Shown here piece by piece: positions 1,687 to 10,617 of a DNA stretch of 64,000 bases. The stretch is from NCBI RefSeq assembly GCF_002943425.1, contig NZ_PTRA01000001.1, forward strand, positions 2,356,001 to 2,420,000. Reading direction: 5' to 3'. The notes beneath the pieces were generated by a model. That model saw only the letters and a program-made list of their open reading frames with translations, made no database searches and had not been told where the DNA came from. Every line of letters starts with the position of its first letter. Position 1 is the first letter of the stretch. The position numbers and the translations under genes are program-made. The stretch is from Siphonobacter curvatus. Its GTDB lineage: Bacteria; Bacteroidota; Bacteroidia; Cytophagales; Spirosomataceae.

Positions 1687-2505
1687 TCAGAATTGATCGT
1701 TGAAAGCCCATTGTAAAAAGGCTGGCATTATGGCTCCCCACGTTTCCGGATTATGCTGTCCGCCCTCTACTTGCAGATAAGTAAAATCCGTTTCCCGTAT
1801 ATATCCCTTCCTTTCCAGTTCATACATCAGATCATACGTATCGTCAATGGCGTCGATGATACCATTGTTATTTCGATCGTCCTTTTCATCATCGGTACCC
1901 GCTTCAAACCAGAATTTCAGAGCGGGTTTACCAATTGTGTTTCGGATCTGAACGTGCATGATGCGGTCATTGGCATCATCATAGCCTTCGTCATACGCCC
2001 GACTTCGCCACCAGAGTGCTCCCGAGAAAACGCCCACCTTTGAGAATACGTCCGCATGATTCCAGCACACATCCAGAGCTGAAAGTCCACCCAGTGAGAA
2101 GCCCGCATACACCCGGCTTTGTAGCTCTTTATTTACGCGAAAGTGCTTTTCAACATACGGCACCAGTTCATGGAGTACAAATTGGGTATGAGCCTCTGCC
2201 CGATCACCCCTCCCCTTGTAGTCGGGCTGGTGAGCGGTTCCGTATTCCGAGAGCCGTCGTTCATTCGCGTGAATCCCTACGACCAGCAGACCGGGCACTT
2301 GATTTTTCTGGTATAACTTTTCTAGGGTTTCCTGAAGCCGCAACCGTTCAAAATCCTGCCCGTCATTGAGGTACAGAGTGGCGTACAACTGGGTAGACGA
2401 TTCATAACCCGGGGGGAGCAAAAACGTCAGGGAAACCAATCGCTCCAGCGAATGAGAATTGAGCGTTACTGAATGACTTGTAATCGTAAATGGATCCAAA
2501 GGCAT
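1687..2505 (-). CDS. Alpha/beta-hydrolase esterase (PF00756-like)
   Basis: A 272-residue putative esterase of the enterochelin-esterase/esterase D type. The nucleophile elbow GFSLGG is at about residues 135-140 (Ser137) and a likely catalytic His lies in EGGQHNPETW near residue 251. Between them, about residues 210-221, is a DRNNNGIIDAID loop that fits the EF-hand/dockerin calcium pattern (D at 1, N at 3 and 5, G at 6, I at 8, D at 12). No signal peptide is visible, so it is probably cytoplasmic. The frame is open upstream to a TTG at 2523, but the ATG at 2505 is preferred. It is transcribed divergently from a second esterase of the same broad family, which begins the ligase/amidotransferase cluster. 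The substrate is unknown; the neighbour relation suggests ester or amide hydrolysis linked to that pathway. Confidence 0.8.
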   Translation of the reverse strand: MPLDPFTITSHSVTLNSHSLERLVSLTFLLPPGYESSTQLYATLYLNDGQDFERLRLQETLEKLYQKNQVPGLLVVGIHANERRLSEYGTAHQPDYKGRGDRAEAHTQFVLHELVPYVEKHFRVNKELQSRVYAGFSLGGLSALDVCWNHADVFSKVGVFSGALWWRSRAYDEGYDDANDRIMHVQIRNTIGKPALKFWFEAGTDDEKDDRNNNGIIDAIDDTYDLMYELERKGYIRETDFTYLQVEGGQHNPETWGAIMPAFLQWAFNDQF

Positions 2506-2679
2506 AGGATTAAATTCGGCCAACCTGCTTTTCCGCTGGAAATCGGTGTGCGGCAGGTAAAAATGGGTAAGTTACGCCTAATTTTAAAACTGAACAAGCA
2601 CAGTAAACCAAATTAAATTTTACACAAACTTAATTTACCTAATTATAGAAGCAAAACAAGCTTAAAAAACCATTAATTA

Positions 2680-2710
2680 TTTGGATTCTTTAAAAATCGA
2701 AATAATCTTG
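2680..2710 (+). promoter_or_regulatory. Bacteroidota-type promoter for the ligase cluster
   Basis: TTTG at 2680-2683 is followed after 19 bases by TAATCTTG at 2703-2710, close to the Bacteroidota primary-sigma consensus TTTG-N19-21-TAnnTTTG (one mismatch in the -7 box). Transcription would start about 15 bases before the GTG of the following gene. The surrounding 2524-2732 gap is AT-rich and serves two divergent genes. Confidence 0.5.
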
Positions 2711-2732
2711 TAGGCTCTAACTTCATCAACTA

Positions 2733-3437
2733 GTGAACGAACAGTACATTAAGTATTACTCGCATTCTCTACACCGGGATATTGAGTTATTGGTGTTTGG
2801 ACATTGGGGCTATCCGGTTTTAGTTTTTCCAACCAGCCAGCACCGTTACTATGAAGCGAAGGATGTACAATTGGTAGAGTCCGCCCGCTCGCTCATTGAA
2901 GCCGGTAAAATCAAGTTATACTGCGTCGATACCATTGATTCGGACTCCTGGTACGCCCGGCATTTACATCCATCAGCCCGGATCTATCAGGCTAGTTTGT
3001 ACGACCGTTTTCTGAACGAAGAACTGATTCCCTGGATGCAACACGAAAACCATACGCCTACCGTCGCCGTGAGTGGATCCAGTTTCGGTGGTTTTCATGC
3101 GGCCAACGTGGCGTTTCGCCATCCCGAGAAAGTGTCGCATCTATTTACGATGGGAGCCGCTTTTGACATTCGAAATTTCATGGACGGCTATTACGATGAC
3201 AACGTATATTTCAATAATCCACCCGATTATCTGCCTCATTCCCATGACGCAAACCTGTGGCGGATGCAGATTATTTTGGGTACCTGTATCTCCGATTTTT
3301 GCCGGCCTTCTACCGAGCATCTTTCGCAAATTCTGAGTACCAAACAAATTCCACACTGGCTCGACGTGCGTTGGCATGGTACCCACGACTGGCCCATCTG
3401 GCGGGAAATGTTTCCCGAATACCTCGCAAAAATTTAA
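2733..3437 (+). CDS. Alpha/beta-hydrolase, esterase family
   Basis: A 234-residue hydrolase beginning at a GTG codon. GSSFGG at residues 115-120 is the nucleophile elbow (Ser117), and the C-terminal WHGTHDWPIW segment supplies candidate catalytic His residues 215 and 218. It belongs to the putative esterase superfamily (PF00756) that includes mycolyltransferase-like and enterochelin-esterase-like enzymes. No signal peptide is visible. The next gene starts 46 bases downstream on the same strand, so this is likely the first gene of the operon driven by the promoter at 2680. With the divergent esterase upstream, two hydrolases of one fold flank the start of the ligase cluster. The substrate cannot be read from sequence. 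Confidence 0.8.
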   Translation: MNEQYIKYYSHSLHRDIELLVFGHWGYPVLVFPTSQHRYYEAKDVQLVESARSLIEAGKIKLYCVDTIDSDSWYARHLHPSARIYQASLYDRFLNEELIPWMQHENHTPTVAVSGSSFGGFHAANVAFRHPEKVSHLFTMGAAFDIRNFMDGYYDDNVYFNNPPDYLPHSHDANLWRMQIILGTCISDFCRPSTEHLSQILSTKQIPHWLDVRWHGTHDWPIWREMFPEYLAKI

Positions 3438-3483
3438 ACCCTTTAGCATCCGTACTAACGGACCCCAACCACTCCCTTTTCTT

Positions 3484-4440
3484 ATGAAAAAAATCGGTAT
3501 TCTCCACGGTATGGAAAACACCTTCCCGGCGGCTTTTGTGGAACGAGTTAATCTGATCGCCCCCGAAGGAATTAGGGCTGAGCCCGTCAGCGTTGGGAAA
3601 GTAGTACAGGGTGAAGCCAGTGAGTATGCCGTGATCATTGATCGGATTTCACAGGATGTCCCATTTTATCGTTCGTATCTAAAAAATGTGGCTCTCACGG
3701 GTACTATTGTTATCAATAACCCTTTCTGGTGGAGTGCGGACGAGAAGTTCTTCAATAATGCTCTAGCTACCAAAATTGGCGTTCCGGTGCCGAATACGGT
3801 ATTGCTGCCCTCGAAAGCACGGCCCGATGATACGCAGGAAACCTCATTTCGAAATCTGGCCATGATGCCCTGGGAGGAGATTTACCAGTACATCGGATTT
3901 CCGGCCTTTATGAAACCTCACGCGGGCGGTGGCTGGAAAAATGTCTATAAAGTAGATAATCCGGACCAACTCTTCCAGGCCTATGATGAAACGGGTCAGT
4001 TGGTCATGCTTCTGCAGGAAGCCATTGATTTCGAATCGTACTATCGTTGCTACTGCATTGGCGGCAAGCACGTCCGGATTATGCCCTACGAGCCCCGTAA
4101 CCCCCATCACCTCCGCTACGCCGCGGATTTTCCGGAAAACCCGGCGTTGATGAAAACGATGGAAGACTACGTCCTACGTCTCAACCGGGCATTGGGTTAC
4201 GACTTCAATACGGTCGAATTTGCCGTGCGGAATGGTGTACCTATTGCCATCGACTTCTGCAATCCAGCTCCCGATGCCGATGTATATTCGGTAGGAGAAA
4301 CCAACTTTGAGTGGGTGGTCGAAACGGCCGCAGCCTATGCCATCGAACGGGCACTCACTTATGAAGAAGGCAAACTCAATTTAACCTGGGGCGATTTCAC
4401 CAAAGCCGGCGTAACGAATCAACCGCTGACGAGTTTTTAA
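3484..4440 (+). CDS. ATP-grasp domain protein (RimK-like ligase)
   Basis: A 318-residue protein with an ATP-grasp layout: an N-terminal Rossmann-like part (MKKIGILHGMENTFP), a central segment with FMKPHAGGGWKNV (Lys144 and the Gly-rich loop that would cover ATP), LLQEAIDF as a nucleotide-binding strand, and a C-terminal metal-binding region with NTVEFAV and IDFCNPAPDAD (Glu245, Asp257, Asn260). ATP-grasp enzymes make amide or peptide bonds through an acyl-phosphate, so a carboxylate-amine ligase role is inferred. The frame is open back to 3376 inside the previous gene, but the ATG at 3484 avoids that overlap. It lies between a hydrolase and a GCS2-type ligase. The substrate is unknown. Confidence 0.75.
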   Translation: MKKIGILHGMENTFPAAFVERVNLIAPEGIRAEPVSVGKVVQGEASEYAVIIDRISQDVPFYRSYLKNVALTGTIVINNPFWWSADEKFFNNALATKIGVPVPNTVLLPSKARPDDTQETSFRNLAMMPWEEIYQYIGFPAFMKPHAGGGWKNVYKVDNPDQLFQAYDETGQLVMLLQEAIDFESYYRCYCIGGKHVRIMPYEPRNPHHLRYAADFPENPALMKTMEDYVLRLNRALGYDFNTVEFAVRNGVPIAIDFCNPAPDADVYSVGETNFEWVVETAAAYAIERALTYEEGKLNLTWGDFTKAGVTNQPLTSF

Positions 4441-4638
4441 GCCGAGTTTGTGGAGTTTGATCGAGTTTAAAGTTCAAGTTAGATTTAAAGTTTGAGGCAC
4501 GTTTGATTGTTTGAAACTGCCTGTGTATGAATCTTTTCAAACCTTAAATGTTCATCAAACTATTTCAAACTTTAACTCCTCAATCCCACTCAAACTTATC
4601 CCAGTCCACCTCTGTATCATTCCAATTCCTCAGCCCTT
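4441..4638. repeat. Intergenic TTTAAA/CAAACTT-rich low-complexity block
   Basis: This 198-bp gap contains many short related words (GAGTTTG, TTTAAAGTTTGAG, CAAACTATTTCAAACTTTAA, CTCAAACTT) on both strands and no coding potential. Similar word sets occur at about 9181-9240, 10470-10510, 34830-34995 and 63830-63970. The block separates the hydrolase/ATP-grasp pair from the GCS2 gene, so the cluster may be more than one transcript. Confidence 0.45.
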
Positions 4639-5739
4639 ATGCCCGTATTTACCCTTGGCATTGAAGAAGAGTTTCAAACCATAGATCCCGAAACCCGCGA
4701 ACTTCGCTCCCACATGAGCAAGATCGTGGATGGTGGAAAAATTATCCTGCAGGAACGGGTTAAGGCAGAAATGCACCAGGCCGTTGTGGAAGTAGGTACC
4801 AACATCTGTACCAACATCCAGGAAGCCCGCGAGGAAGTCACGTACTTACGCCGGGAAATCATGGAGCTAGCTGACAAGCAGAATCTGCGGATTGCGGCGG
4901 CGGGTACGCACCCCTTTTCTGATTGGGTAGATCAGCTCATTACGCCCAACCCCCGGTACGACCAGCTTATCAGCGAAATGCGGGATGTCGCCCGTTCCAA
5001 CCTCATTTTTGGCCTGCACGTGCACGTCGGCATACCGAGCCGCAACGAAGGACTGGAAATCATGAATGCCGTCCGGTATTTTCTTCCGCACGTCTATGCC
5101 TTAAGTACCAACTCGCCCTTCTGGTGTGGACGTGACACGGGCTTCAAAAGCTACCGTTCCAAGGTATTTGACAAGTTCCCGCGTACGGGTATTCCCGAGT
5201 TTTTCAATACCGCCAACGAATACGACGAGTACATCAACTTACTGGTCAAAACCAATTGCATCGACGACGGTAAGAAAATCTGGTGGGACATTCGCCTGCA
5301 TCCGCATTTCGATACGGTTGAGTTTCGCATCTGTGACATTCCCATGCGGGTGGATGAAACCATTTGTTTAGCGGCACTCATGCAGGCTCTGGTGGTGAAA
5401 ATTTACAAATTGATGCGGCAGAATCTGAACTTCCGGCTTTACCGCAAGGCTCTTATTAGTGAAAACAAATGGCGGGCTGCCCGGTACGGAATTTCGGGAA
5501 AACTGATTGATTTCGGCCGTCAGGAAGAGGTACCTTACGAAACGCTCGCTCAGGAATTAATGGAGTTTGTAGACGACGTACTCGATGAACTCGGCAGTCG
5601 CAAAGAGGTGGAATATATCAATACGATTTTGAAGATGGGTACGGGAGCCGACCGACAGTTGGCCGTCTGGGAACGGACGCAAGACCTCAAAAGTGTAGTG
5701 GATTACATCGTCGAAGAAACCCGCCACGGGATTCGATAA
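4639..5739 (+). CDS. Carboxylate-amine ligase, GCS2/YbdK family
   Basis: A 366-residue member of the glutamate-cysteine ligase type 2 family (PF04107), close to the usual length of about 370. The N-terminal GIEEEFQ motif carries the Glu residues that bind metal-ATP. GLHVHVG (around residue 133) and the DIRLHPHFDTVEFRICD segment (around 218-234) are the other family hallmarks. The fold is that of glutamine synthetase/GshA enzymes, which activate a carboxylate with ATP and couple it to an amine. YbdK-type proteins have only weak glutamate-cysteine ligase activity and their physiological substrate is unknown. Here the gene sits between ATP-grasp and glutamine amidotransferase genes, which argues for a dedicated pathway rather than glutathione synthesis. 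No gshB-like partner was recognised. Confidence 0.88.
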   Translation: MPVFTLGIEEEFQTIDPETRELRSHMSKIVDGGKIILQERVKAEMHQAVVEVGTNICTNIQEAREEVTYLRREIMELADKQNLRIAAAGTHPFSDWVDQLITPNPRYDQLISEMRDVARSNLIFGLHVHVGIPSRNEGLEIMNAVRYFLPHVYALSTNSPFWCGRDTGFKSYRSKVFDKFPRTGIPEFFNTANEYDEYINLLVKTNCIDDGKKIWWDIRLHPHFDTVEFRICDIPMRVDETICLAALMQALVVKIYKLMRQNLNFRLYRKALISENKWRAARYGISGKLIDFGRQEEVPYETLAQELMEFVDDVLDELGSRKEVEYINTILKMGTGADRQLAVWERTQDLKSVVDYIVEETRHGIR

Positions 5740-5846
5740 AAGGCTGTGTTTTTGCAAACGTATACCGATCTTTGCCTTTTATTTTTCAGCTTTTTGAGCC
5801 ACAAAAAGCAATAAGTCATTAACTACGAGTAGATTAACTTGGTTTT

Positions 5847-6659
5847 ATGAAGCAGATACGGTTGGCCATTCTGGATTTATATAATGGTGTTCCCAACGAA
5901 GGAATGCGATGTATTCAGCAATTAGTACAGGAATTTTCGGAGGAAATTGGCGGCTGCGTCGTGCAAATTTTTGACGTTCGGCAGCAAGGTGAGTTACCCG
6001 CTTTGAACGATTTTGACATTTTTATCTCGACGGGCGGGCCTGGAAATCCACTCGAAACGGGTGATTGGGGTACGGCTTATTTCGATCTGATTGATCAGGT
6101 TTTCGAACACAACAAAACGCAGACTGCCAAGAAATTTTTACTGCTTATCTGTCACTCGTTCCAGATGGTGAGTCATCACCTGGGCATTGGTACAGTAACG
6201 CGTCGTAAATCGACCAGCTTCGGTACGTTTCCGATTCATAAAACGGCCAATGGCTACGACGAGCCGTACCTGGAATTACTCCCTGATCCCTTCTGGGCCG
6301 TGGATTCGCGGGATTACCAAATCATTAATGCCAACTTTTCGCGGATTGATGCCATTGGAGCGAAAGTACTTTGCCGGGAGAAAATCCGTCCCCACGTACC
6401 GCTGGAACGGGCCATTATGGCGGTCCGGTTTTCACGCGAAGTATTCGGTACGCAGTTTCACCCCGAAGCCGATGCCGTGGGGATGTTACGCTACTTCCAG
6501 CAGCCCGAGAAACAGAAACAGGTCATTGATGAGCACGGCTATGAGAAGTACCAGAACATGGTCGATCACCTCAACGATCCGGATAAAATTCTGCTGACGG
6601 AATCGGTTATTATTCCGACGTTTTTGCGGGATGCCTACCATAAACTGGCTGCTAACTAA
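5847..6659 (+). CDS. Class I glutamine amidotransferase
   Basis: A 270-residue protein with the complete class I GATase triad: Cys102 in LICHSFQM, and His205 with Glu207 in GTQFHPEAD. STGGPGNP (residues 61-68) is the oxyanion-hole loop. Such domains release ammonia from glutamine and pass it to a synthetase; a few members are gamma-glutamyl hydrolases instead. The synthetase partner is not fused here, and the flanking ligase genes are candidates. The C-terminal 60 residues (after the HPE motif) extend beyond the minimal domain. It is followed at 6688 by another ligase-like gene, 28 bp after the stop. The GCS2 gene ends 107 bp upstream on the same strand. Confidence 0.85.
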   Translation: MKQIRLAILDLYNGVPNEGMRCIQQLVQEFSEEIGGCVVQIFDVRQQGELPALNDFDIFISTGGPGNPLETGDWGTAYFDLIDQVFEHNKTQTAKKFLLLICHSFQMVSHHLGIGTVTRRKSTSFGTFPIHKTANGYDEPYLELLPDPFWAVDSRDYQIINANFSRIDAIGAKVLCREKIRPHVPLERAIMAVRFSREVFGTQFHPEADAVGMLRYFQQPEKQKQVIDEHGYEKYQNMVDHLNDPDKILLTESVIIPTFLRDAYHKLAAN

Positions 6660-6687
6660 CCCCTACCGCACTCTTCACCCATTCGAT

Positions 6688-7881
6688 ATGATTTCAACGA
6701 TTCGTCGGACCTACAATGCCGCTTTTTCGGAAGAAAAGTACCAGGAGTTTCTGGATTCGATTCACCAGGACTGGCCTAACCAACTGGAATTCCGTCTGGC
6801 CGAAACGCCCGTATTTGTTCCGGCTTCCTTACGCGAAAAGCTCGTTACGGCCTGCGAATCGTTTATTGATACCATCACCGCTCCGGATTTCAAAGCAAAG
6901 ACCGAGGCATCTATTCCATCGGATCAGCGGGTTCCCAATGAAAATGAACATACGCATTTTCTGGCGATTGACTTTGCCGTATGCCGGGACCAAAACGGCG
7001 AATTAGCACCCCAACTGATTGAATTGCAGGGCTTCCCTTCGCTGTTTGCGTTTCAGGGCTATTTACCGGAGAAGTTTAAAGAGCACTTTTCGATCCCGGA
7101 CTCGCTGATCTGGAATTTCGGCGGGTACGATTTCGAGGCTTATATAACGAAGCTTAAAGATCTTATTCTGGACGGCGAAGATCCCGCTCACTGCGTTCTG
7201 CTGGAAATCTTTCCGGAAAAACAGAAAACCCGCGTGGATTTTGCCGTTACGGAAAAGTTGCTGGGAATCCGGTCGGTTTGCTTTACCAAGATTCAAAAAG
7301 AAGGTCGAACGCTTTATTACGACCGGGATGGGGTCAAAACACCGATTCGCCGGATGTACAACCGACTGATTTTTGATGATCTGTTGCACTACCCCGACAT
7401 GCCGGTATCGTATCAACTGACGGACGACGTAGATGTAACCTGGGTGGGGCATCCCAACTGGTTTTTCCGAATTTCGAAATACATTCTTCCCCTGCTGAAT
7501 TCGCCGTACGTACCTCAGGCACGATACGTGAGCGATTTTCAGGGTCAGTTTCCCGAAAATCTGGACGATTACGTACTCAAACCCCTGTTCAGTTTCGCGG
7601 GGATGGGCGTCAATCTGCACCCAACGGCAGAATTACTAACCGCTCTTCATGATCCGGAACATTACATTCTCCAGAAAAAAGTGAAGTACGAGCCCGTCAT
7701 TGAGGCTCCCGACGGTGGGGTGAAGTGTGAAATCCGGATGTTGTATGTTTGGCCCGATCAGGCGAAACGACCCGAGTTACTCACGAGTTTAAGCCGCCTG
7801 AGTCGCGGCGAAATGATTGGCGTTCGCTTCAACCAGAATTTTACCTGGGTGGGCGGAACGGCTTGCTTTTTTGAACCCTAA
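6688..7881 (+). CDS. Putative ATP-grasp-type ligase
   Basis: A 397-residue protein not assigned to a named family with certainty. The C-terminal third resembles ATP-grasp: YVLKPLFSFAGMGV (about residues 295-308, Lys298 and a Gly loop) followed by YILQKKV, CEIRMLYVW and GVRFNQNFTWVGGT. The N-terminal half contains FLAIDFAVCRD and LIELQGFPSLFAFQGY, which could be a substrate-binding part. No signal peptide or membrane segment is present. The frame extends upstream to 6631 inside the amidotransferase gene, but the ATG at 6688 gives a clean 28-bp gap. It ends 24 bp before the aminotransferase, so the two are surely cotranscribed. Ligase chemistry is inferred from the loop motif; a structural comparison would settle it. 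Confidence 0.6.
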   Translation: MISTIRRTYNAAFSEEKYQEFLDSIHQDWPNQLEFRLAETPVFVPASLREKLVTACESFIDTITAPDFKAKTEASIPSDQRVPNENEHTHFLAIDFAVCRDQNGELAPQLIELQGFPSLFAFQGYLPEKFKEHFSIPDSLIWNFGGYDFEAYITKLKDLILDGEDPAHCVLLEIFPEKQKTRVDFAVTEKLLGIRSVCFTKIQKEGRTLYYDRDGVKTPIRRMYNRLIFDDLLHYPDMPVSYQLTDDVDVTWVGHPNWFFRISKYILPLLNSPYVPQARYVSDFQGQFPENLDDYVLKPLFSFAGMGVNLHPTAELLTALHDPEHYILQKKVKYEPVIEAPDGGVKCEIRMLYVWPDQAKRPELLTSLSRLSRGEMIGVRFNQNFTWVGGTACFFEP

Positions 7882-7905
7882 CGCGGGTTTTGTGATTACC
7901 TTTTT

Positions 7906-9108
7906 ATGCATCAACGACAGCTTTTCCTAAATCACCTTGCCCAAACGTCGGATTTTCCGCTGGCTTTGGAAATCGAAAAAGCCGAAGGAATCTGGTTATA
8001 CAGTCCCGACGGAAAGGCGTATATGGATTTGATTTCCGGCATCGGTGTTTCCAACGTCGGTCATCGGCATCCGAAAGTGGTTCAGGCCATCAAACATCAG
8101 GTGGATCATTACCTGCACACGCTGGTCTACGGCGAATATGTACAGGCTCCGCAAGTCTTACTGGCTCAGGCTCTGGTCGAAACGCTAGCTGCTTACCATA
8201 CGCCTTCGGGCTATGCGATTGACAATGTGTACCTGACTAACTCGGGTACGGAAGCCGTAGAAGGAGCCATGAAACTGGCGAAGCGGTTCACCGGTCGTAC
8301 CGAAATCATTTCCTGTTTTAATGCCTATCACGGTTCTACGCAGGGAGCCCTGAGTCTGGCGGGAGCCGACTTTTTCAAACGTCAGTTCCGCCCCTTACTC
8401 CCCGATATCCGTCATATTCACCACGGTGTACTGGCTGATCTATCGAACATTACTAGGCGAACCGCAGCCGTTGTCATTGAAGTCATTTCTGCCGAGTCGG
8501 GCATTCGCGTTCCTTCACAGGAATACCTGCAAGCCTTACGCGATCGCTGTACCGAAACGGGTACGCTCCTAATTTTCGACGAGATACAAACGGGTTTCGG
8601 TCGTACAGGTTCCTTCTGGGCGTTCGAGCAATTTGGTGTTGTACCCGACGTTCTGCTGTCGGCCAAAGGAATGGGCGGCGGTATGCCCATTGGAGCATTC
8701 ATGGCTCCGCAACCGCTCATGGCCGTCTTCAAGAACAATCCTATTCTGGGGCACATCACCACGTTTGGTGGGCATCCCGTCAGTGCAGCGGCTTCACTGG
8801 CTACACTTCGGACCATTCAAGAAGAAAACCTGTGTGCATCCGTAGCGGCTAAAGCCGAACTCTTCAAAAAGTATCTGGTACATCCCCGAATCAAGGAAAT
8901 CCGGAATCAGGGTTTGATGATGGCCGTAGAGTTTGCGGATTTCGGCGAATTGAAAGCCATTATCGATCACGGCATTGAAAACGGGGTAGTTACCGACTGG
9001 TTTTTGTTCTGCGACAACTCCATGCGAATCGCTCCTCCCTTGACGATTACGGAAGACGAAATTCGTCAGGCCTGTGATGTGATTCTGCGGGCAATAGAAG
9101 CCGTATAA
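7906..9108 (+). CDS. Class III PLP-dependent aminotransferase
   Basis: A 400-residue aminotransferase of the acetylornithine/4-aminobutyrate family. TNSGTEAVEGAMKLAKRFTG (residues 111-130) binds the PLP phosphate, Asp225 in FDEIQTGFGRTG holds the pyridine nitrogen, and Lys254 in LLSAKGMGGGMPIGAF forms the Schiff base. It starts 24 bp after the preceding ligase-like gene and is the last gene of the cluster, followed by two strong hairpins. It is not next to other arginine biosynthesis genes, so annotation as argD would be unsafe. The likely role is making or consuming an omega- or alpha-amino group of an intermediate in the same pathway; substrate unknown. Confidence 0.85.
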   Translation: MHQRQLFLNHLAQTSDFPLALEIEKAEGIWLYSPDGKAYMDLISGIGVSNVGHRHPKVVQAIKHQVDHYLHTLVYGEYVQAPQVLLAQALVETLAAYHTPSGYAIDNVYLTNSGTEAVEGAMKLAKRFTGRTEIISCFNAYHGSTQGALSLAGADFFKRQFRPLLPDIRHIHHGVLADLSNITRRTAAVVIEVISAESGIRVPSQEYLQALRDRCTETGTLLIFDEIQTGFGRTGSFWAFEQFGVVPDVLLSAKGMGGGMPIGAFMAPQPLMAVFKNNPILGHITTFGGHPVSAAASLATLRTIQEENLCASVAAKAELFKKYLVHPRIKEIRNQGLMMAVEFADFGELKAIIDHGIENGVVTDWFLFCDNSMRIAPPLTITEDEIRQACDVILRAIEAV

Positions 9109-9237: not shown

Positions 9238-9561
9238 TTATAATTGAGCAGCCAGTTTCTGAGCCAGTACGGGTTTGGGTACTGCTCCAACTACTTTATC
9301 AACGAGTTCTCCGTTTTTGAAAATCATCAGCGTAGGGATGCTACGGATTCCGAATTTAGAGGGCGTCGTGCTGTTAGCATCTACGTCCATTTTCGCTACT
9401 ACGGCTTTGCCTTCGTACTCGCCAGCTAATTCTTCTACTACGGGTCCGATCATTTTGCAAGGTCCGCACCATTCAGCCCAGAAATCTACTAAAACGGGTT
9501 TATCAGAGTTGATAAGTTGCTCAAAATTAGAGTCGGTCGCCTCAATTGTCTTGTGTGCCAT
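9238..9561 (-). CDS. trxA: Thioredoxin
   Basis: A 107-residue cytoplasmic thioredoxin of standard length. The redox active site WCGPC has Cys32 and Cys35, and the cis-proline is Pro76 in RSIPTLMIF. It reduces protein disulfides using electrons from thioredoxin reductase, which is not encoded here. The ATG at 9561 gives [10 protein letters not shown], a normal N-terminus without a signal peptide. The gene stands alone and ends facing the aminotransferase gene across two hairpins. There is nothing unusual in its residues. Confidence 0.97.
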
Positions 9562-9771
9562 TTCCTTAATATATTAAAAATGCTTAGATGATTCGAAGGT
9601 TAAAACGGATTCGCTTCGTGAAAGTTCAACCAATGCCTAGAAACTTGCTCCGCTTGTCGCTTTCGTACAGAGATAGAACAAGGGCATTTAAAAATTAATT
9701 CACTAGAAGAGAAGATATTCCTCCGGTTTGCTTCCACTCAAAAATCTTTTTTTCGCATTACTTTTCAAACC

Positions 9772-10446
9772 TTATTCGTCGGTGCTTTCTTCAAAAATAA
9801 GGTTGAGAAAGTCCAGATACGGCTTTAAGATCAAACAACTTTCTTCCACCTTCTGGGTAAAATTAGGAGATAGCACTTCCTGATCGGTAAAGGAATGCGA
9901 AAAAAATAACTGCGTCCGACGAAGTAGCTCAATTTCAGGGTGATCTTTTGGATAGCCTTTCGGAGCGGTTTTCAGAGAGGTTCCTTCAGGTTCGCCAAAA
10001 TGAGTTTTAAAAGCGGGAGCTTCAATAATGCCTTTGATTTCCTGGGGATTGTAATCAATTTCCTGACGGAATTTGGCTAACTGCGAAGGCGTTGATTCCC
10101 ACATGCCTCCACCCAAAAACGATTTGCCGGGGGCTATATGCAGGTAATAATCCATCTTGGACGATTTACGTCCACCTTCACCAAAGCTGGCCGCCAGCCA
10201 GGTTTTATAGGGTGATTTGTCGGGTGAAAAGCGGACATCCCGAGCAATGCGATAATTACAGTCCTGGACGCGGATGCCCGCCAGATTTTCGAACTGTCCA
10301 ATGCGATAAATCAGATCCTGAACCGTTTCTTCAAAATTTGATTTAACTCCCTCCCACTCTTTTTTGTGGATTTGGAACCACTCACGCGTATTGTTTTGAG
10401 CTAACTCTTTTAAAAATTTCAGGGTCGAAGCCGGAATTTGGGGCAT
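9772..10446 (-). CDS. DUF2461 domain protein (TIGR02453 type)
   Basis: A 224-residue conserved protein of unknown function. The hallmarks of DUF2461 are seen: FLKELAQNNTREWFQIHKKE near the N-terminus, DCNYRIARDVRFSPDKSPYKTW in the middle and YYLHIAPGKSFLGGGMW after that. No signal peptide is present. The open frame reaches back to 10617 but the extension (beginning MQRLAISG) is unlike the family and enters the hairpin-rich block, so the ATG at 10446 is preferred. The gene is not obviously in an operon. No function is proposed. Confidence 0.85.
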   Translation of the reverse strand: MPQIPASTLKFLKELAQNNTREWFQIHKKEWEGVKSNFEETVQDLIYRIGQFENLAGIRVQDCNYRIARDVRFSPDKSPYKTWLAASFGEGGRKSSKMDYYLHIAPGKSFLGGGMWESTPSQLAKFRQEIDYNPQEIKGIIEAPAFKTHFGEPEGTSLKTAPKGYPKDHPEIELLRRTQLFFSHSFTDQEVLSPNFTQKVEESCLILKPYLDFLNLIFEESTDE

Positions 10447-10617
10447 AATGACTGGATATTTTGAATGGCTTGGTTTGCTTAAAGTTTGATAACGTTTGAA
10501 AAGGGTTGGAGGTTCGTGGGGAGAGAAAGGTAAAAAAGGTATTTCAATAGCGATTTTCTCAGAATAAGTATTTGCCAGCTTCGTCCCGCAGACACCACTG
10601 ATCGCTAGCCTTTGCAC

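Follow-up and report, generated by a model that had tools for sequence, protein, structure and literature searches.

Introduction

In glutathione biosynthesis, whether by GshA and GshB or by the plant and yeast type of pathway, a gamma-glutamyl-type ligase of the GCS2 fold is followed by one or more ligases of the ATP-grasp type, and ligases of both kinds are likewise encoded by a cluster of seven genes in the bacterium Siphonobacter curvatus. The cluster lies at positions 1687–9108 of a stretch of 64,000 nucleotides (contig NZ_PTRA01000001.1, positions 2,356,001–2,420,000), which was analysed as a whole and is called the window here; its genes are referred to as A to G in their order along the window. 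Compared with glutathione biosynthesis, the cluster has an extra ligase, a putative amidase and esterases; D stays below the GshA-type cut-off, and no protein of the genome reaches that for GshB. Our preferred reading, held tentatively and at slightly less than an even chance, is that an operon with genes B to F at its core makes a small, amide-linked metabolite of gamma-glutamyl type, assembled without a nonribosomal peptide synthetase (NRPS) and by a logic like that of glutathione.

Several other described systems bear on this reading. In ergothioneine biosynthesis (EgtA/EgtC) and in the Puu pathway, a gamma-glutamyl group is added by one enzyme and removed by an amidotransferase-like hydrolase; EgtC is a class II enzyme and PuuA is glutamine-synthetase-like, and neither type was matched in this cluster. 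A survey of amidoligases by Iyer et al. in 2009 reportedly described ATP-grasp and GCS2-type ligases together with peptidases and amidotransferases, and predicted peptide synthesis for them. Arabidopsis gamma-glutamyl peptidase 1 (GGP1) is a single-domain protein of the class I amidotransferase fold, as is E, with which it shares about 18% identity. Glutathionylspermidine synthase, YgiC and YjfC resemble F, and a variant ligase called k34 below, in fold or profile; unlike glutathionylspermidine synthase, F has no Pfam match and no fused amidase domain, and polyamine use by F is only a candidate activity. The E-64 ligase Cp1B belongs to the same fold group as F (9cjn), and the E-64 pathway, according to part of the account in PMC12568646, is an NRPS-independent amide assembly with stand-alone ligases, as is proposed here. 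Cp1B differs in being fungal, in using epoxysuccinate as substrate, and in having other partners, with neither a GCS2 ligase nor a gamma-glutamyl amidase.

Conservation of the gene cluster in Bacteroidota

We surveyed 296 Bacteroidota genomes, searching for each gene at its own threshold. B was present in 125 genomes, C in 108, D in 103 (101 above its cut-off), F in 92 and E in 70. Pairwise, C and D occurred together in 91 genomes, C and F in 89, and D and F in 87; 84 genomes had all three and 120 at least one of them, while the five genes B to F were found together in 50. These co-occurrences include genomes in which C, D and F are unlinked, and the Fisher values calculated for them ignore relatedness. 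Among close relatives, F was present in 24 of 39 genomes, the host genome included, and it is 97% identical in a relative of the same genus.

The surroundings of F were analyzed at 111 loci, taken from 82 of the 92 F genomes, 18 further close relatives and 11 named loci. F was accompanied by D at 66 loci, by C at 65, by E at 63, by B at 52, by A at 28 and by G at 18. Because the partners B to E recur at 52 to 66 loci, against 12 for the most frequent neighbor family outside A to G, the clustering goes beyond chance. At least one partner in conserved order and direction was found at 80 of the 111 loci, and the order B-C-D-E-F-G on a single strand held at every locus where it was called. Among the 24 family labels represented by 100 of the loci (L037–L136), 15 have F linked to at least one core partner.

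A sequence-only reading of the window had described seven clustered genes of named families, among them two PF00756 hydrolases, one of them divergent, and had supposed that they work together. All seven open reading frames (ORFs) were confirmed in place by ORF reading of the window, Pfam and NCBIfam agree with the families given for A, B, D, E and G, and both hydrolases belong to PF00756 as described; a lack of conserved order in related genomes would have contradicted that reading, and the counts above show the order to be conserved.

The unit is not invariant. The seven-gene set was universal nowhere in the survey, no complete A to G set being common to all 111 F loci, and seven genomes of a single family have the operon divided between two sites, of which one holds A, C and D and the other F, accompanied by E in some cases. 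Looser searches found E on the opposite strand at L066, a locus additional to the 80 counted above, and weak A-like esterases upstream on the same strand at L083, L097, L127 and L128. At these last four loci the module also includes an additional esterase, an M17 aminopeptidase and an ATP-grasp_4 protein, as it does, differently oriented, at L077; the ATP-grasp_4 protein points to a further ligase in one lineage.

Folds of proteins F and E

F (6688–7881, plus strand) matched no family in Pfam or NCBIfam at an E-value of 0.001, glutathionylspermidine synthase included. Its AlphaFold2 model, built with 56 homologues, has a mean predicted local distance difference test score (pLDDT) of 94.8. Foldseek comparison of this model with the Protein Data Bank (PDB) gave as best match a putative glutathionylspermidine synthase (3n6x, E=2.4e-14), then yeast glutathione synthetase (1m0w, 2.8e-13), YgiC (7uk8, 2.0e-12) and Cp1B (5.1e-11), with human glutathione synthetase, Escherichia coli GspS and homoglutathione synthetase among the further matches. 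These matches, with TM-scores of about 0.5–0.6, indicate that F shares the fold of the glutathionylspermidine synthase family, a fold that it also has in common with eukaryotic glutathione synthetase. A profile search of the PDB returned YgiC as the sole match (E=0.0037), spanning the K-P...G...G loop. Seven residues (D95, E112, Q114, K298, P299, G305 and G307) do not vary across 56 sequences and, as judged by eye, are putative metal and ATP ligands. An unclassified protein family is in this way placed in the glutathione-synthetase-like ATP-grasp group, and the ATP-grasp-like character noted from the sequence is confirmed by the fold. In parts of PMC12568646, YgiC and YjfC are termed peptidylpolyamine synthetases, a title in the reference list there naming peptide-spermidine ligase activity, and Cp1B is an ATP-grasp enzyme that releases ADP as it links a dicarboxylic acid with an L-amino acid. 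Based on the fold kinship and these activities, F is most likely a ligase that joins a peptide or acid with an amine.

No fusion of E and F was seen. At L084 (6555–9179) a frame of 875 amino acids contains F in frame with an upstream stretch that by eye resembles a sodium/solute symporter, and represents either a fusion or overlapping genes. Tandem F-F arrays were considered and rejected, being explained by the clustering of this same transporter-like stretch with F.

A different ligase is found in the place of F in some genomes. Fifteen genomes have C and E without F, and in each of the eight whose loci were fetched (L147, L149, L151, L153, L155, L158, L159 and L160) the ligase k34 directly adjoins C. 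The k34 profile matched glutathionylspermidine synthase 3n6x in the PDB (5.5e-8); k34 scored below the Pfam cut-off for the circularly permuted ATP-grasp and belongs to no named family. It was present in none of the other fetched loci from L026 on, the remainder of those genomes lying outside the search. Four of the eight k34 loci have a second PF00756-type esterase, k83, after E (one member scanned).

E (5847–6659, plus strand) has the fold of a class I glutamine amidotransferase. It passes the cut-off for PF00117 narrowly (27.5 against 22.8 bits), and C102, Q106, H205 and E207 are invariant in 40 of 40 sequences. The score together with the invariant C102, H205 and E207, which we take to be the catalytic Cys-His-Glu triad, places E in this class. 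In Foldseek searches with the E model (pLDDT 95.2), GGP1 ranked first (9k7i, E=3.2e-14), followed by SMU.1228c; homoserine succinyltransferase was likewise within range. The model suggests that E may be a gamma-glutamyl amidase, although the fold is compatible with a hydrolase and with an ammonia donor. At five F loci (L071, L073, L095, L101 and L102), all from genomes that lack E, the position between D and F is taken by members of a single protein cluster, identified as M29-type peptidase (PF02073, 63.2 bits against a cut-off of 27; one member scanned). No stand-in was found in the remaining 32 F genomes without E. The name glutamine amidotransferase given to E from the sequence alone is thus upheld as to family, and may yet mislead as to activity, given the top match to GGP1 and the peptidase found in the E slot of the five E-less genomes.

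The alternative that survives best takes E at its family name, as a true glutamine amidotransferase subunit that delivers ammonia to F (or C), in the way that CarA feeds CarB, so that the product would end in a carboxamide. We regard this as rather unlikely. It draws on the PF00117 score and the invariant Cys-His-Glu set, on the amidotransferases that stand close behind the peptidase in the fold ranking, and on gene position, since E lies directly upstream of F at all 63 F loci with E (no other pair is as tight), and comes after k34 in seven of the eight variant loci. However, 37 of the 92 F genomes lack E, and in five of these the slot is filled by the M29-type peptidase and not by another ammonia source; about ten F genomes carry E at another site, and at L066 E faces away from F.

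Ligases C and D

D (4639–5739, plus strand) scored 223.2 bits with GCS2 (PF04107) and 563.8 bits with the carboxylate-amine ligase model NF010039, well above its cut-off of 371, and its profile matched YbdK in the PDB (1r8g, E=1.2e-65). With the GshA-type model gshA_cyano (TIGR02048) it reached only 51.1 bits against a cut-off of 249.05. By its sequence D is a YbdK-type ligase, outside the GshA type, and is predicted to form an amide.

C (3484–4440, plus strand) is an ATP-grasp ligase resembling RimK and D-Ala-D-Ala ligase, and remains below the cut-offs of both R2K_2 (PF18299, 19.7 against 26.2 bits) and rimK_fam (TIGR00768, 28.8 against 143.4 bits), so that it is assigned neither to the R2K clade nor to RimK. 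Its profile matched a D-Ala-D-Ala ligase in the PDB (3r23, E=0.0013), and K144, P145, G148–G150, D257 and N260 are invariant across 33 sequences.

The likeness of C to RimK raises the possibility that the ligases attach a tag to a protein or an envelope polymer, as RimK-like enzymes do, and that the hydrolases take the tag off again. Among named families RimK/LysX and Ddl are indeed the nearest to C, and the R2K ATP-grasps, to which C shows its sub-threshold similarity, have been proposed to act in peptide tagging (in part of PMC4431377). We nevertheless consider such a role doubtful: C scores under every cut-off, the neighbor families of the 111 loci, drawn from ORFs of at least 90 amino acids, include no small gene for a carrier or target that is conserved, and the folds of E and F suggest small-molecule enzymes.

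Esterases A and B and aminotransferase G

A (1687–2523, minus strand) is a PF00756 esterase (102.2 bits, cut-off 22) in which the GxSxG motif reads GFSLGG. Adjoining B, C or E, it lies divergently upstream in 27 of the 28 F loci that carry it and downstream in the remaining one. B (2733–3437, plus strand, GTG start) is a second, more divergent esterase of the same type (43.7 bits); of 31 aligned members, 27 retain the serine at the GxSxG elbow. Some of the genomes with loci L055, L074, L100 and L124 have a second B-like gene elsewhere. S-formylglutathione hydrolase, which acts on thioester adducts in glutathione metabolism, presumably belongs to the same Pfam clan of esterases as A and B.

G (7906–9108, plus strand) is a class III aminotransferase (Aminotran_3, PF00202, 330.7 bits). 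It is ArgD-like and falls below the cut-off of argD itself (TIGR00707, 338.1 against 410.05 bits), as it does with models for putrescine aminotransferase (272 against 612 bits). All 18 F loci with G are within the window's own family; G is a lineage add-on, outside the conserved core, although the sequence-only reading had counted it with the other six. Three more paralogues of 31–38% identity are encoded in the genome, and G is therefore not its sole transaminase of this kind.

The presence of G could also be taken to mean that the cluster serves Puu-like catabolism, in which D would gamma-glutamylate amines, G would transaminate them and E would release them, and a gamma-glutamyl ligase, the fold of a gamma-glutamyl amidase and a class III transaminase are indeed found side by side. 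That G is confined to 18 of the 111 loci argues against this, as does the finding in Pfam that none of the seven proteins belongs to the PuuA (glutamine-synthetase-type) or PuuD (Peptidase_C26) family; two more ATP-dependent ligases would in addition be costly and unexplained in catabolism, and we judge the proposal improbable. That the genes are neighbors by chance, with unrelated functions, is very improbable and largely refuted: although they are scattered in some genomes and F stands alone at some loci, their order and co-occurrence are conserved and their presence covaries over many family labels, also when they are unlinked.

Gene arrangement and surrounding region

Within the host genome of 6.39 Mb, A stands opposite the co-directional genes B-C-D-E-F-G (2733–9108, plus strand), the starts of A and B being 209 bp apart. 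Because the gaps that follow B are short (46 bases for B-C, 198 for C-D, 107 for D-E, 28 for E-F and 24 for F-G), B to G could form one transcript. A scan for promoters and terminators in the window found no excess over shuffled sequences (5 vs 8.0 and 7 vs 8.7, respectively). The start of C is most likely at 3484, a longer frame from 3376 lying within B, and that of F was put at 6688 because about 20 residues of the frame from 6631 precede the point at which its homologues start. Beyond A to the left, positions 2–1483 hold a long minus-strand frame, which as judged by eye starts with a region like the carboxypeptidase-regulatory-like repeat and apparently has no relation to the cluster. To the right (9238–10617), a thioredoxin (by eye) and a DUF2461 protein (PF09365, Pfam) are encoded convergently with the operon. 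In other genomes, M17 aminopeptidase-like genes lie beside the module at five loci and M42 genes at three (one member of each scanned), and these neighbors add to the peptide theme.

The B-C-D-E-F operon was not found in plasmid relatives, where queries with C and F were without match. B matched 14 plasmid records, mostly from Rhizobium, and neither annotation nor the reading of ORFs revealed the operon at the four loci L137–L140 (L137 and L140 being unannotated, and the reading of L140 not continued). At L138 (4788–10825, Peptoclostridium acidaminophilum), a relative of B follows an annotated ATP-grasp gene that is only marginally similar to C, and an ADP-ribosylglycohydrolase gene lies four genes downstream. 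An anti-phage defense system was ruled out, with a PADLOC match for none of the seven proteins. We found no account of this cluster in the open literature, subscription papers being mostly outside the coverage.

Thiol context and proposed pathway

BshC was found in 291 of the 296 genomes and in that of S. curvatus. Since it is nearly universal, a correlation with loss of bacillithiol is uninformative, and the product of the cluster need not be a thiol. The best score for GshB (TIGR01380) in the genome was 45.3 bits, far below the cut-off of 299.05; with BshC present, canonical glutathione was rejected for this genome, and the product is probably something other than glutathione.

For the gamma-glutamyl-type operon that we tentatively favor, which is supported by the conserved order and co-occurrence of the genes, the YbdK type of D, the folds of E and F and the suggestive nature of the proteins that replace these two, the following route can be envisaged. 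D would activate a carboxylate, for which the gamma-carboxyl group of glutamate is the likeliest candidate, and couple this group to either an amine or an amino acid, the glutamyl substrate being suggested by the family of D and the fold of E. C would append another amino acid, and F would couple the carboxylate of the resulting peptide to a final amine, possibly a polyamine. E would strip or recycle the gamma-glutamyl group, and A and B would cleave ester or thioester adducts formed by the product or by its precursors. Within the window's own family, G may add or remove an amino group on one building block. The sequence-only reading had proposed an amino-acid-derived amide or peptide, and the chemistry predicted from the families and folds agrees with this; it had named no known pathway, and while there is indeed no exact match, the fold of F permits comparison with glutathione-type metabolism. 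The same reading expected the product to be intracellular, for which the lack of an adjoining transporter gene is weak evidence.

Several observations weigh against this reading. The direct results concern the family or fold of each protein, gene order, co-occurrence and the replacements of E and F, and it is from these that we infer substrate, product and direction of flux. Bacillithiol is probably the main thiol route. In the fold ranking of E, a Thermotoga amidotransferase comes close behind GGP1 (1.6e-12), its TM-score being as high as that of GGP1 or higher, and aminodeoxychorismate synthase is also near (2.5e-11); the 37 F genomes without E, five of them with the M29-type stand-in, count here as well. 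D is missing from five of the 92 F genomes and from three of the eight genomes with fetched k34 loci, and the link between F and k34 is weak (hhalign probability 21%). The elbow serine is lost in four of the 31 B copies, those at L055, L074, L100 and L124. F is without any of A to E or G at 31 of the 111 loci, some of which are truncated by contig ends.

A wider proposal, which we put forward as speculative and rather unlikely, is that many Bacteroidota make a second gamma-glutamyl peptide beside bacillithiol, perhaps a polyamine conjugate like glutathionylspermidine. A dedicated operon would encode its enzymes: a YbdK-type ligase, a GGP1-like gamma-glutamyl amidase, a pair of ATP-grasp ligases and either one esterase or two. 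In some lineages the final ligase and the amidase would each have been replaced by unrelated stand-ins. If the gamma-glutamyl reading is right, much of a bacterial phylum produces a gamma-glutamyl metabolite that has yet to be described, and the usual annotation of E as a glutamine amidotransferase is misleading. We know of no settled physiological product for YbdK-type ligases; the conserved operon ties such a ligase to defined partners, and in this way offers a route to its product.

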